From Fibrobacter sp. UWB4 (GTDB taxonomy: Bacteria > Fibrobacterota > Fibrobacteria > Fibrobacterales > Fibrobacteraceae), in contig NZ_MWQI01000001.1 of assembly GCF_002210345.1 (NCBI RefSeq), forward strand, positions 806,001-870,000: a stretch of DNA of 64,000 bases, given 5' to 3'. The notes under the pieces are model-generated. The model did no database searches and was not told the DNA's origin. It worked only from the letters and a program-made list of their open reading frames with translations. Positions within the stretch are counted from its first letter, which is position 1. Each line of letters begins with the position of its first letter. Positions 8,250-51,329 of the stretch are shown one piece after another. Position numbers and translations under genes: made by a program.

Positions 8250-8285
8250 AAGAGGGTATGGTCAGTAACTTTTGGAGGGCTTATA

Positions 8286-8744
8286 ATGTATAATCACTGG
8301 AAAAAGCTTTTGCTTGCTCTGACGGCGTTCTTCTGGAATGCCTGTGATAATAATTCTTCTCCGACGAAATCCAATGATGCCCCTGATTCCAGTTCGAGTT
8401 CATTGACCGATGTGCCTGTTTCTAGTTCTTCTGTCTCTGAAAGTTCGAGTAGTGATGGGCTTTCCGAGGCCGCTCCTCTATATGGAATATTGATGCAAGC
8501 TATCTGCACAAGGACAGAAGGTGATTCTGTCTTAAAGTGTTCTGACGGTGTAACCTGTGTTGAGTCTGTTAGTGAAACGGAAAAGAATAGTTCATGTTCT
8601 GAAACTGGGTTGTGCGCCAAATACGGTGTTGTTATCATCAAGAATAAAACCTACAATTGCGATGACGGCATGGTCTATAATGAATCGGAATTTAGGGCCC
8701 TTTACGAAACGATGACGGTTGCACCAAATTTGGATCGTGAATAA
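8286..8744 (+). CDS. Cys-containing lipoprotein, probable partner of the adjacent radical SAM enzyme
   Basis: A 152-residue predicted lipoprotein with a signal peptide ending FFWNAC (lipid Cys about residue 20), then a Ser-rich linker (about 21-58). The mature domain begins near APLYGI and holds six further Cys residues (ICTRTEG, LKCSDG, VTCVES, SSCSE, LCAKYG, YNCDDG). The pattern of a lipidated, Cys-containing protein immediately before a SPASM radical SAM gene (5-base gap) is that of the rSAM/lipoprotein systems modelled for Bacteroidetes as TIGR04133/TIGR04134. Membership is my inference from layout. If correct, this protein would be the substrate modified before export. No modification chemistry is known to me for this pair. 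Confidence 0.68.
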   Translation: MYNHWKKLLLALTAFFWNACDNNSSPTKSNDAPDSSSSSLTDVPVSSSSVSESSSSDGLSEAAPLYGILMQAICTRTEGDSVLKCSDGVTCVESVSETEKNSSCSETGLCAKYGVVIIKNKTYNCDDGMVYNESEFRALYETMTVAPNLDRE

Positions 8745-8749
8745 AAATT

Positions 8750-9826
8750 GTGCATCTTGGCCTAAAAAAGAAACTTGCGCTTGAGGCGCACCGCCTTTAT
8801 CGTCATAGCGAAATCAAGGCGCATAAGCTCTCGTATTTTTTCTGGGAATGTACACTGCGGTGCAATTTACATTGTCTGCACTGCGGTAGCGATTGCGTTT
8901 CTGAGGCAATCCCTGATATGCCCCGTGAAGATTTTTTCCGGGTCCTGGATAGCCTAGCTCCGCATATTGATCCGGCTGATTTTGCTGTTGTGATTACGGG
9001 CGGCGAGCCTTTGATGCGCGCAGATCTTGAAGAATGCGGCCGAGAAATCAAGAAGCGTGGTTACCCGTGGGGGATGGTAACAAATGGACTTGGGCTAACT
9101 CCCGAGCGCTATACAAGGCTCTTAAATGCTGGGCTGAAATCGCTTACGATCAGTCTTGACGGTCTCGAAGATAATCATAATCTGTTTCGAGGGAATCCGC
9201 ATAGCTTTGAACGCGCTGTACGGGCGATAAACATGGCTGCGCATACCGACGGCATTACGTTCGATGTCATGACTTGCGTGAATCGTAAAAATTTAAAAGA
9301 ACTGCCTAGTATTTTTAATTTGTTATTGAATCTGGGCGTCAAGCGTTGGCGTGTTTCAAACGTGTTTCCCAAAGGCCGTGCCAAGGATAATCCGCTGTTC
9401 ATGCTCTCGAATGATGAGTTTAGGCAGGTGTTTGAATTTATCCGTGAAGCGAAATCGAAAAAGCTCATGAATGTGAATTACGATTGCGAAGGATTTCTCG
9501 GAAGTTACGAGCATGTTGTTCGCGATTATCCGTTCTTTTGCTGGGCTGGCGTGAATATAGCTTCTGTACTATGTGATGGGAGCATTTCGGCATGCCCGAG
9601 CTTGCGGGGCGATTACATCCAGGGGAATATCTATACGGATGATTTTTGGGATGTATGGCAGAATCGCTATCATGTCATGCGGGACCGCAGCTGGGCTAAA
9701 ACTGGCGAATGCGGCGATTGCAAGTATTGGCGCTATTGCGAAGGCTCCAGCCTGCATCTCCGCGACGAGAAAACCAAAGAATTAGCTTATTGCCATGTGA
9801 AACGGCTTGAAGCCACGGGTGTTTGA
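8750..9826 (+). CDS. SPASM-domain radical SAM enzyme (rSAM/lipoprotein type)
   Basis: A 358-residue radical SAM protein. The [4Fe-4S]-SAM motif is CNLHCLHC (Cys 35, 39, 42), with extra Cys residues before and after it. ITGGEPLM is the GGEP motif and LTISLDGLEDNH the usual beta-strand 5 region. The C-terminal third is a SPASM domain with Cys in CWAGVN, LCDGSISACPS, ECGDCKYWRYCEG and AYC, which would bind auxiliary clusters. It most likely modifies a peptide, and the Cys-containing lipoprotein 5 bases upstream is the obvious candidate. The start is GTG at 8750, with no good ribosome site, so translational coupling to the upstream gene is likely. It differs from the AhbC-type enzyme at 50 kb. 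Confidence 0.85.
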   Translation: MHLGLKKKLALEAHRLYRHSEIKAHKLSYFFWECTLRCNLHCLHCGSDCVSEAIPDMPREDFFRVLDSLAPHIDPADFAVVITGGEPLMRADLEECGREIKKRGYPWGMVTNGLGLTPERYTRLLNAGLKSLTISLDGLEDNHNLFRGNPHSFERAVRAINMAAHTDGITFDVMTCVNRKNLKELPSIFNLLLNLGVKRWRVSNVFPKGRAKDNPLFMLSNDEFRQVFEFIREAKSKKLMNVNYDCEGFLGSYEHVVRDYPFFCWAGVNIASVLCDGSISACPSLRGDYIQGNIYTDDFWDVWQNRYHVMRDRSWAKTGECGDCKYWRYCEGSSLHLRDEKTKELAYCHVKRLEATGV

Positions 9827-10790: not shown

Positions 10791-12788
10791 TTAATCTTCT
10801 TCGTCTTTTTTTGAGGGCTTAGCGCAGCGGTCTGTAGCCCAGTTGGTCGACTTGAAGCAGGCACTTCTGGTGTAGCAACATCCGTATGCATTTTTATTGC
10901 CAAGATCTTCGCAATGGCAAGCAATTCCGTCACCTTCCTTCTCTTCGTCAACAAGTTCACCGTTAGCGCAGACCACCATGTATCCGCCAGTGTGATAACT
11001 TGTGTTGATGCAGGTTTGGAGGGTATTGTGGCAAACTCCGAAGTAGGTACCCTGGATATTGCATGTTACGTGTCTCGTCTCGTTTGTAAGGTCGAATTCG
11101 AAATCTTCCACGCGTTCATCAGGAGAGGAGACTGGTTTGTGATTATTCCAGTTGTACCCGTGAACGGTTTTGGCGGCCATCTTTTTACTAGGAATCAGTT
11201 CCTTCCATTTCTGTTTCGTCTCGAAACTTCTGAACGGCGGATAGTCGGGGTCTTCTTCGGCAAGGATTTTCTTGCAACGTTCCTCGTCGTAGCAGGGGTT
11301 TGGATTGGAAGGCGCTATGCCCATTGGCTCACCCCAGCAGGGATCACAATCAGAACATTGATCCGTGTCGCATTCGTTCTCCATCTTCTGTGGATCGGTG
11401 CCTTCTCTACAAGCGACGGGACATTTGTAATACTCCTTGTCGAGCGGGTCGAACTTGTTATGGAGCCTTTCCCATTGCCCGTCGACGCACCTGTACATGA
11501 CAGCGTTGTTGTTGATGTCATTGTCGCATCTCAGTTCGCCGTTAAGACATTCGCCGCAGATAGCCTTGTCGGTACGGCACGACTTGTTGCCGCATATGGA
11601 AACGGCCTTCTTGGCTTCGCCGGCGACGCACTCGTAGACGGTTCCCTTTCCGGCTTCATCGTTGGTGCATGTGTGTTCGTAGTTCGTGCACTCGCCGCAA
11701 CCGTTGTCGCGCGGGTCGCAGGATTTTCCGTTACAGCTCTCGGTCACCTTCTTGCCCTTTTCGCAGCGGGTGACTGTCGCCTTAAAGTTTTTGTCCTCGG
11801 TACAGGTCTGCACGTCGTTGAGGCATTCGCCGCAATCCGTGCCCTTTTCGTTACAGGAGACCAAGCCACACGAGCGGTTCACAAGTACCCCCTTCACGCA
11901 TTCCTTGACAATACCGATTCCCGTGGGGCTGTCGGAGCAGGAGTTTGTGAAACTGTCGCTGCACTCCTTTTCAAAGACATCCTTATTTGCACATTCCTTG
12001 CTTTTAATATTGCAAAGAACGCCCTCGTCACAAGTAGTTCCCTTGCAAACGCAGGCTCCGTCTTTCGCGGTACCGCCAGAAGCCTTGCACAAGTCGGCGA
12101 ATGTCGGGGCGGATGCCGCAGAAGATGAGCTGAGCTTGGGCTGGTTTCCGCAAGCGCCCGTGACCGTGTTGCAGACGGCTCCTTCATCACAGACATCTTC
12201 CTTGCAAACGCAGGCTCCGTCTTTCGCGGTACCGCCAGAAGCCTTGCACAAATCGGCGAAAGTCGGTGTTGCAGAGGAGGAACTTGATTTAGAGTTTGAA
12301 GAAGCTACAGAGGAAGAACTTTTTTTGGATGCCGAAGATATATCGGAGGGCTTGCTACGGTTTCCGCAGACACCCGTGATTGTGTTACAGACGGCACCAA
12401 CGTCGCAGAGTTCTTTTTTACAGACGCAAGCTCCGTCTTTTGCGGTACCACCAGAAGCCTTACAGAGTTCCGTAAAATTCGAGAGTTCGTCCTTACCCTT
12501 GGACGAGGAACTGGCCCTGCTACTAGATGATTTTGCAGAACTTAAAGAATCTTTCTTGGAAACAGGAATCCAGTTTTCGTTGTGGCAGTAGTAATCGGCG
12601 TCTTCTTTTTGGGCGTAGACGGTATCGCCTTCGTTTTCATCGCCGCATTTCCCAAGTTCATAGATCGAGTTGACCTCCGTAATGATTTCCCTTGGAAGTG
12701 TCTCGTCGCTGGATTCATCGCTGCAGGCGACTAGAACCGTCGCAACTGCTGTGGCAACGAACAAAATGTTTGAAAGAACTTTCTTCAT
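10791..12788 (-). CDS. Large Cys-rich repeat lipoprotein
   Basis: A 665-residue predicted lipoprotein. The ATG at 12788 is chosen because GGGGAG lies just upstream of it; an in-frame ATG 12 bases earlier overlaps that site. The lipobox is TVLVAC. Ser-rich linkers separate three near-identical modules with the words LCKASGGTAKDGACVC and GAVCNTxTGxCGN (about residues 105-270). Four or more longer Cys-rich modules follow, with the pattern GxCxxCxNxxxxC (GECLN, GECTN, GECLN). The C-terminal third has further Cys pairs and no recognisable fold. It is probably a disulfide-stabilised surface protein. The function is unknown; recombination between the three repeats could change its length. Confidence 0.75.
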   Translation of the reverse strand: MKKVLSNILFVATAVATVLVACSDESSDETLPREIITEVNSIYELGKCGDENEGDTVYAQKEDADYYCHNENWIPVSKKDSLSSAKSSSSRASSSSKGKDELSNFTELCKASGGTAKDGACVCKKELCDVGAVCNTITGVCGNRSKPSDISSASKKSSSSVASSNSKSSSSSATPTFADLCKASGGTAKDGACVCKEDVCDEGAVCNTVTGACGNQPKLSSSSAASAPTFADLCKASGGTAKDGACVCKGTTCDEGVLCNIKSKECANKDVFEKECSDSFTNSCSDSPTGIGIVKECVKGVLVNRSCGLVSCNEKGTDCGECLNDVQTCTEDKNFKATVTRCEKGKKVTESCNGKSCDPRDNGCGECTNYEHTCTNDEAGKGTVYECVAGEAKKAVSICGNKSCRTDKAICGECLNGELRCDNDINNNAVMYRCVDGQWERLHNKFDPLDKEYYKCPVACREGTDPQKMENECDTDQCSDCDPCWGEPMGIAPSNPNPCYDEERCKKILAEEDPDYPPFRSFETKQKWKELIPSKKMAAKTVHGYNWNNHKPVSSPDERVEDFEFDLTNETRHVTCNIQGTYFGVCHNTLQTCINTSYHTGGYMVVCANGELVDEEKEGDGIACHCEDLGNKNAYGCCYTRSACFKSTNWATDRCAKPSKKDEED

Positions 12789-12886
12789 GATTCTCCCCAA
12801 TGATCAGGATAAAGAAATTATTGACAAAAATTTAGATAGAAAAGCCATGCATGTCAATTTTTTTGAAAAAAAATCGCCCTATCCCC

Positions 12887-50156: not shown

Positions 50157-51329
50157 ATGATCAGTATTACTAAGCTTTTGATGGACACCCCGAATTTTGG
50201 GGATTCTCTTCGTTATCAACCTCATGCGCACAAGGCGACAAATGGTGTGGGCGCAGGACGTGGCCCGGTGGTGGTGTGGAATTGCACCAAGACTTGCAAC
50301 CTGAAGTGTGTGCATTGCTATGCCCGTTCAGAGGCGATTAAGTACCAGAACGAACTTACGCACGAAGAGGGAATCAAGCTTATTGATCAGCTTGCGGATT
50401 TTCATGTGCCGGTGATTTTGTTCAGCGGTGGCGAACCGCTTTTGCGCCCGGACTTTTTTGAACTCGCAAACTATGCGGCAAGCAAGGGCATCCGCCCGAC
50501 GATTTCGACGAACGGCACCTGCATCACGCCGGATGTGGCTCAGAAGCTCAAGGCGATGGGCGTTGGCTATGTGGGCATCAGCTTGGATGGTTGCGAAGAG
50601 ACTCACGACAAGTTCCGCGGCAAGCAGGGCGCGTACCAGATGGCTTTGCGCGGAATCCGCAATTGTGTGGCGACGGGCCAGAAGGTTGGGCTCCGCTTTA
50701 CGATTACGAAGTACAACTATCAAGACTTGAACGCCATTTTCGATTTGCTCGAAGCGGAAAACATTGATAGAGTTTGTTTCTATCACCTTGTCTATAGCGG
50801 TCGCGGAAGCGCAATGGTCGATAACGACTTGAATCACGAAGAAAGTCGCAAAGTGATGGACTTGATCATTGATCGCACTTTGGACTTTAAGAAGCGCGGC
50901 GTGAACAAGGAAATTTTGACGGTCGACAACCATGCCGATGCCGTTTATCTGTACCAGCGCATGAAGCGTGAAGACCCGGAACGCGCCGAAAAGATTTTGG
51001 ATTTGATTAAGATGAACGGTGGCAACCGCAGTGGCATGGCATTTGGCAATATCGATAGCATCGGTAATGTGCATCCGGACCAGTTTACGCAATATATCAC
51101 GCTTGGTAACGTTCGCGAACGCAGTTTCGGAGACATTTGGACAGACTTGTCAAATCCGATTATGGCTGGCCTCAAGAACCGCAAACCGCTTTTGAAGGGG
51201 CGTTGTCCGAAGTGTGCTTACTTGAATTTGTGCAACGGCAATTTCCGCACGCGTGCCGAAGCCGTTACTGGTGACTTCTGGGCTGAAGATCCGGCTTGCT
51301 ATTTGACCGATGAAGAAATTGGATTATAA
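50157..51329 (+). CDS. ahbC: AhbC-type radical SAM enzyme (didecarboxysirohaem deacetylase)
   Basis: A 390-residue radical SAM protein. The cluster motif CNLKCVHCYA (Cys about 47, 51, 54) is followed by LFSGGEPLLRPDF and VGISLDGCEETHD. The C-terminal SPASM-like part has CPKCAYLNLCNGNFRTRAEA. The start MISITKLLMDTPNFGDSL and overall length match AhbC/NirJ-type proteins. AhbC removes two acetate side chains from 12,18-didecarboxysirohaem, giving Fe-coproporphyrin III. It is followed by the fused sirohaem decarboxylase gene, which makes its substrate. NirJ (haem d1) is the alternative; the haem genes around it favour AhbC. Confidence 0.86.
   Translation: MISITKLLMDTPNFGDSLRYQPHAHKATNGVGAGRGPVVVWNCTKTCNLKCVHCYARSEAIKYQNELTHEEGIKLIDQLADFHVPVILFSGGEPLLRPDFFELANYAASKGIRPTISTNGTCITPDVAQKLKAMGVGYVGISLDGCEETHDKFRGKQGAYQMALRGIRNCVATGQKVGLRFTITKYNYQDLNAIFDLLEAENIDRVCFYHLVYSGRGSAMVDNDLNHEESRKVMDLIIDRTLDFKKRGVNKEILTVDNHADAVYLYQRMKREDPERAEKILDLIKMNGGNRSGMAFGNIDSIGNVHPDQFTQYITLGNVRERSFGDIWTDLSNPIMAGLKNRKPLLKGRCPKCAYLNLCNGNFRTRAEAVTGDFWAEDPACYLTDEEIGL

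Follow-up and report, generated by a model that had tools for sequence, protein, structure and literature searches.

PlpX of Pleurocapsa is a proven splicease, a SPASM radical SAM enzyme that excises tyramine at X-Y-G. It falls within IPR026482, and is encoded with precursors of the Nif11 or nitrile-hydratase-like type and with the small protein PlpY (PMC11002830). Its natural sites are MYG or LYG, and PlpX tags have sequences such as RPGYGLPI (PMC10533398). Protease inhibition has been described for the spliceotide products (PMC11117315).

A second system, TIGR04133/TIGR04134 of Bacteroidota and Treponema, comprises an enzyme and an adjacent lipoprotein with YG after its lipobox. Both are modelled families without known product, and no paper naming either was found in the openly accessible literature. 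The 2022 survey of spliceases by Scott et al. (Chem) may cover the TIGR04133 family already. Here we compare these systems with a gene pair from Fibrobacter sp. UWB4, lying in a stretch of 64,000 nucleotides that we call the window.

The gene pair of the window

The initial annotation described a lipoprotein with six cysteines in its mature domain, followed after 5 bases by a SPASM enzyme. This pair is real (Table 1). The enzyme matches the NCBIfam model TIGR04133 at 593.1 bits (cut-off 425, E 1e-178) over model positions 1-350 of 350, and both Radical_SAM (PF04055) and SPASM (PF13186) are above cut-off. The CxxxCxxC motif is formed by C38, C42 and C45 and is followed by GS, and the SPASM cysteines are conserved; radical SAM and SPASM domains with CxxxCxxC are what is expected of a splicease. 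The structure of the enzyme, predicted with rows from the genome loci only, is closest in fold to the RiPP maturases SkfB and SuiB. It has an N-terminal helix (5-24), and no separate RRE domain was seen in its secondary structure.

Table 1. Features of the lipoprotein-enzyme pair, in window coordinates.
Feature	Position	Strand	Basis
Lipoprotein, 152 aa, predicted substrate	8286..8744	+	ORF list and homologues
Lipoprotein signal peptide and lipobox Cys20, MYNHWKKLLLALTAFFWNA followed by C	8286..8345	+	inspection and 20-row alignment
Ser-rich disordered linker, residues 21-62, mostly pLDDT < 50	8346..8471	+	predicted model
Predicted splice site 1, L65-Y66-G67 (APLYGILMQA), at the end of the disordered linker	8478..8486	+	motif and predicted model
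Small Cys domain, rich in beta structure (strands 72-145), containing a CDDGxxYxxxEF element	8499..8720	+	predicted model
Predicted splice site 2, K112-Y113-G114 (CAKYGVVIIK), directly ahead of a predicted strand	8619..8627	+	motif and predicted model
TIGR04133 radical SAM/SPASM enzyme, 358 aa, GTG start	8750..9826	+	profile match

The GTG start of the enzyme is correct, since relatives align from the same residue, where they have ATG (MHLGLKK.., MQLSLKK..). The lipoprotein gene has a good Shine-Dalgarno sequence (ggaggg, 8274-8279) while none is visible for the enzyme gene, so that co-transcription and translational coupling of the two genes are plausible from the sequence. The single promoter that had been proposed for both is unsupported. 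A promoter search gave 4 matches where 3.4 were expected, i.e. chance level, with none distinguishable from chance, and the best of them (8259-8287) overlaps the start codon of the lipoprotein. No small PlpY-like gene is present between the two genes or directly after them.

By inspection the lipoprotein has the n, h and c regions of a bacterial signal peptide ending in a lipobox cysteine. In an alignment of 20 lipoproteins H4, W5, L10, W17 and C20 are invariant, and no other part of the substrate is as well conserved as the signal peptide; the tryptophan at -3 of the lipobox is uncommon, yet conserved. The signal peptide may double as a recognition leader. Six cysteines lie beyond Cys20. No NCBIfam or Pfam model matched the lipoprotein, nor did any Pfam model match its homologues; a structural match for its domain was found neither in Pfam nor, at a significant level, in the PDB. 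The filing of the pair under TIGR04133/TIGR04134 holds for the enzyme, while in the profile search the lipoprotein had no TIGR04134 match at E<=1 (cut-off 39.8 bits). Among the genomes of the phylum that were searched, the TIGR04134 cut-off was passed in two, in one of which (G056) the match is beside the enzyme. The window also encodes a large lipoprotein at 10791-12800 (-); it has three near-identical Cys-rich repeats of the TFADLCKASGGTAKDGACVCKEDVCDEGAVCNTVTGACGN type and matched no family significantly.

The search of the phylum covered 61 genomes, of which 37 belong to the genus of the window, including its own. The enzyme is present at an identity of at least 73% in 34 of these 37. Outside the genus it was found at 71% identity in a single genome from the same order, and at 56-57% in two others, one from the same class and one from the same phylum. 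One genome that is 99% complete (G008) has neither the enzyme nor any detectable lipoprotein; the other two that lack the enzyme have a completeness of 74-77%, and a lipoprotein of the family persists in one. The suggestion that such a system would be new in Fibrobacter fails, because the enzyme is nearly universal in the Fibrobacter genomes searched and scores above the public TIGR04133 cut-off. A second locus in the genome of the window (G000:C8, L041) encodes an enzyme that is 82% identical, along with four lipoproteins containing YG.

The Tyr-Gly motif of the partner lipoproteins

Partners in Fibrobacter were collected as the lipoproteins around Fibrobacter-type loci with W-x-[AGSN]-C (FFWxxC) at the end of the signal peptide. 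There are 140 distinct proteins, with 1 to 15 per locus, and all are on the strand of the enzyme where the locus includes one. Their mature parts are strongly divergent, but Tyr-Gly is retained in 137, with 370 YG overall. When each mature sequence was shuffled, only 56.6±5.3 proteins had one or more YG (maximum 75), and there were 72.7±8.0 YG. YG is the most enriched dipeptide in these lipoproteins (5.1x), occurring 12.7 times per 1000 residues compared with 2.4 in 53 other predicted lipoproteins of the same loci. It is typically preceded by P or A at -2 and L, K, E or D at -1, and G is followed by V, I, P, C or A and then often by P. The layout of radical SAM enzyme and lipoprotein that had been recognized in the window is borne out in Fibrobacter-type loci: each of the 46 enzyme copies examined there adjoins a YG-bearing partner on the same strand. 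At the sole locus without a detected lipoprotein (L076) the adjacent partner has AEYGCPS and PLYGVPQ.

Attention had earlier been drawn to the six cysteines of the lipoprotein. A modification based on these, such as a thioether ring of the sactipeptide or ranthipeptide kind, would accord with the Cys-rich nature of many Fibrobacter partners and with the presence among the nearest solved folds of SkfB, which is a thioether-forming maturase. However, the number and spacing of the cysteines vary while YG is kept, and the partners in Bacteroidota are mostly poor in cysteine. Partners that have the lipobox cysteine alone or only one more still contain 3-4 YG (L071 1333-2058, L073 1711-2409 and L072 11896-12588), and those at L071 include proteins with no cysteine beyond the lipobox. 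A Cys-centred modification as the common feature is thus ruled out, and cysteine chemistry as the activity of the enzyme is extremely improbable; it is YG, overlooked in the initial annotation, that points to the mechanism.

In each of the three loci L071, L072 and L073, 11-15 FFWxxC lipoproteins and two copies of the enzyme are encoded in a single run of genes. These lipoproteins are strongly divergent among themselves, resembling a diversifying surface repertoire.

A scan of named genomes yielded 580 relatives that were confirmed, and we kept 80 of them, mostly from Bacteroidota. On reading these TIGR04133 loci, about 74 of the 80 have a YG partner. The remaining six or so have none nearby (L138, L153, L181, L183, L191 and L195), some being at contig ends. 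In the Bacteroidota and other named loci YG is present in 76 of 78 partner lipoproteins, compared with 34.8±4.2 on shuffling (maximum 46). Partners with X-Y-G, as expected for a splicease, are therefore found far above the shuffled frequency both here and in Fibrobacter. The usual form is [EM]-Y-G-[TVS]-P. It precedes the TIGR04134 domain, and a median of 10 residues separates its tyrosine from the lipid cysteine. Annotated examples are SCYGMP in Treponema saccharophilum and CEYGSP in Parabacteroides; a Phocaeicola partner with CEYGTP is unannotated. The Fibrobacter system has the same enzyme family, adjacency and YG after the lipobox. It differs in the FFWxxC signal peptide, the Ser-rich linker, the replacement of the TIGR04134 domain by a Cys domain, the multiple YG, and a number of partners that can reach 15 per locus.

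Across these loci the partners vary in almost everything except the signal peptide and the motif. They include short lipoproteins of 66-91 residues (L165, L168 and L145), proteins that contain little beyond the motif (L145, L156 and L185), and a secreted partner with no evident lipobox (L145, LYGCPYADY). The motif can be repeated in tandem, as KYGVITPP three times (L082), as KYGVP repeats (L081), or as KYGV and PAYGV repeats. From their sequences, the tandem arrays and very short partners look like multi-core substrates.

It could be argued that YG serves only in docking or structure, for export or domain folding, with the enzyme acting elsewhere or on another substrate, and YG does often directly precede a structured domain, both in the predicted model and in the TIGR04134 partners. 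Yet the motif persists in tandem arrays in linkers, in lipopeptides of 66-91 aa, in Ig-like domains, in Cys domains and in a secreted protein that has no evident lipobox, and it also occurs in the partners of related enzymes (see below). A common structural role in such unrelated contexts is therefore unlikely, and we regard this explanation as a whole as highly unlikely.

In T. saccharophilum (L112 2806-3450, -) the pair adjoins a gene for a recombinase of the master DNA invertase Mpi family, so that its expression might be phase-variable.

Related enzymes and their partners

In a maximum likelihood tree that included PqqE and MftC, and in which the PlpX family would be represented by TIGR04103 from Nostoc rather than by a PlpX sequence, TIGR04133 and its distant homologues are sister (91/78) to a TIGR04103/TIGR03913 clade. 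The latter comprises TIGR04103 (Nostoc), TIGR03913 and a close relative (Azospirillum, Aureibacter), an Agathobacter enzyme and a second type of Fibrobacter enzyme. On removal of the long PqqE and MftC branches and addition of a Tropicibacter sequence, the group is separated from NirJ, NirJ1, NirJ2, TIGR04347 and TIGR04053 at 100/99. CxxxCxxCGS (HCGS) is present in all 24 rows of the group and in none of the other rows. The MftC, PqqE and NirJ/AhbC/AhbD examples compared share the radical SAM/SPASM architecture but have no HCGS. The window enzyme scores alike against AhbD (137 bits) and TIGR04103 (136 bits).

The Nostoc TIGR04103 enzyme is nearest in the tree, and shares HCGS and 28-30% identity with that of the window. 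Its locus has a Nif11 precursor ending in ALYGLPPELF and a 71-aa gene behind the enzyme, matching the layout of PlpX. PlpX thus seems to belong to TIGR04103, judged from this layout and from the InterPro number IPR026482, which would correspond to TIGR04103, rather than from sequence; the literature search found no text equating the two. PlpX and the window enzyme have in common the SPASM radical SAM architecture and a partner with X-Y-G, and the PlpX tags resemble the YG sites of the TIGR04133 partners. Unlike PlpX, the window pair has no PlpY and no Nif11 or nitrile-hydratase-like leader; its predicted substrate is lipid-anchored, and tyramine excision is here proposed by analogy.

The TIGR03913 GDL-motif/DUF1843 system has an enzyme of the HCGS clade and peptides with MLYGG, KPYGV or QPYGA, some having no YG (e.g. 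MYM). It is unlike the window in that the peptides are of 56-64 aa and arranged in trios, there is no lipoprotein, and the enzymes are longer (474-518 aa in three examples). Just downstream of enzymes that are 37% identical to that of the window (L085-L088) is a gene for a zinc-ribbon protein of ~260 aa with ILYGPPIKI or AIYGPPIRI; the distant TIGR04133 homologue at L085 scores below cut-off. No clear partner was found for the Tropicibacter HCGS enzyme.

Two further kinds of locus were noted in the HCGS group. An unannotated ORF of 35 residues (MFNLEELSLEFVKISELKTSKNLFGPVMYGTGVRM; L197 2809-2916, +) with PVMYGTG immediately precedes an HCGS radical SAM gene on an Agathobacter rectalis plasmid, and is possibly a splicease precursor in a human gut Firmicute. 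Two Fibrobacter genomes have a second type of HCGS enzyme that is closer to TIGR04103 (L205 6004-7461, - and L206 5663-7120, -), adjoining a protein with many KYGYP repeats (L205 7541-8368, - and L206 7257-8252, -); no NCBIfam model matched that of L205.

YG would be the candidate target whatever the chemistry, and another radical reaction at its tyrosine or a neighbor might occur without excision of tyramine, e.g. decarboxylation, a crosslink as for MftC and PqqE, epimerization, or an ether or C-C bond. MftC and PqqE are related radical SAM/SPASM enzymes that perform other chemistry on peptide tyrosine, and the identity to the PlpX-like clade is low (28% with Nostoc TIGR04103). Nevertheless X-Y-G, with X often L, M, K or E, is the motif of PlpX, and the nearest clade in the tree is TIGR04103/TIGR03913. 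A crosslink is further disfavored in Fibrobacter, where context counts reveal no fixed partner residue at any position around YG. Overall a different reaction at the tyrosine appears rather unlikely.

Proposed action on lipoproteins

We therefore think it probable that the window enzyme is a splicease of lipoproteins, working without a PlpY-type partner, and that its sites are L65-Y66-G67 and K112-Y113-G114; the chemistry is proposed from that of PlpX. Since a [4Fe-4S] enzyme would be cytosolic, as lipoprotein biology suggests, it should act before Sec export, binding the newly made lipoprotein probably with the aid of the strongly conserved signal peptide. It would then cut the tyrosine out of the protein chain at YG, leaving a reactive keto group. 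The product would be exported, lipidated at Cys20 and displayed on the surface with at least one backbone alpha-ketoamide in or beside the surface linker. The likely use would be as a tethered electrophile, most plausibly as a protease trap or as protection against proteases.

More tentatively, such proteins in Bacteroidota, Fibrobacterota and Treponema may constitute an unrecognized and widespread class of surface lipoproteins with backbone alpha-ketoamides made by a PlpY-free splicease, serving as tethered covalent protease traps or attachment groups; in Fibrobacter they would have diversified into arrays of as many as 15 lipoproteins, each with several splice sites. If these are splicease systems, a rare chemistry of cyanobacterial peptides becomes a common modification of the surface lipoproteins of gut and rumen bacteria, and its substrate motif is defined and hence testable. 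Because spliceotides are reported to inhibit proteases (PMC11117315), a role at the interface with host or rumen is likewise testable. For labeling, too, a PlpY-free splicease that acts on exported proteins would be useful.

The window additionally encodes a NirJ1/AhbC-like radical SAM protein (50253-51242, +), and a NirJ2-like one lies elsewhere in the genome (G000:C1:875612). This suggests a siroheme route to heme or heme d1.
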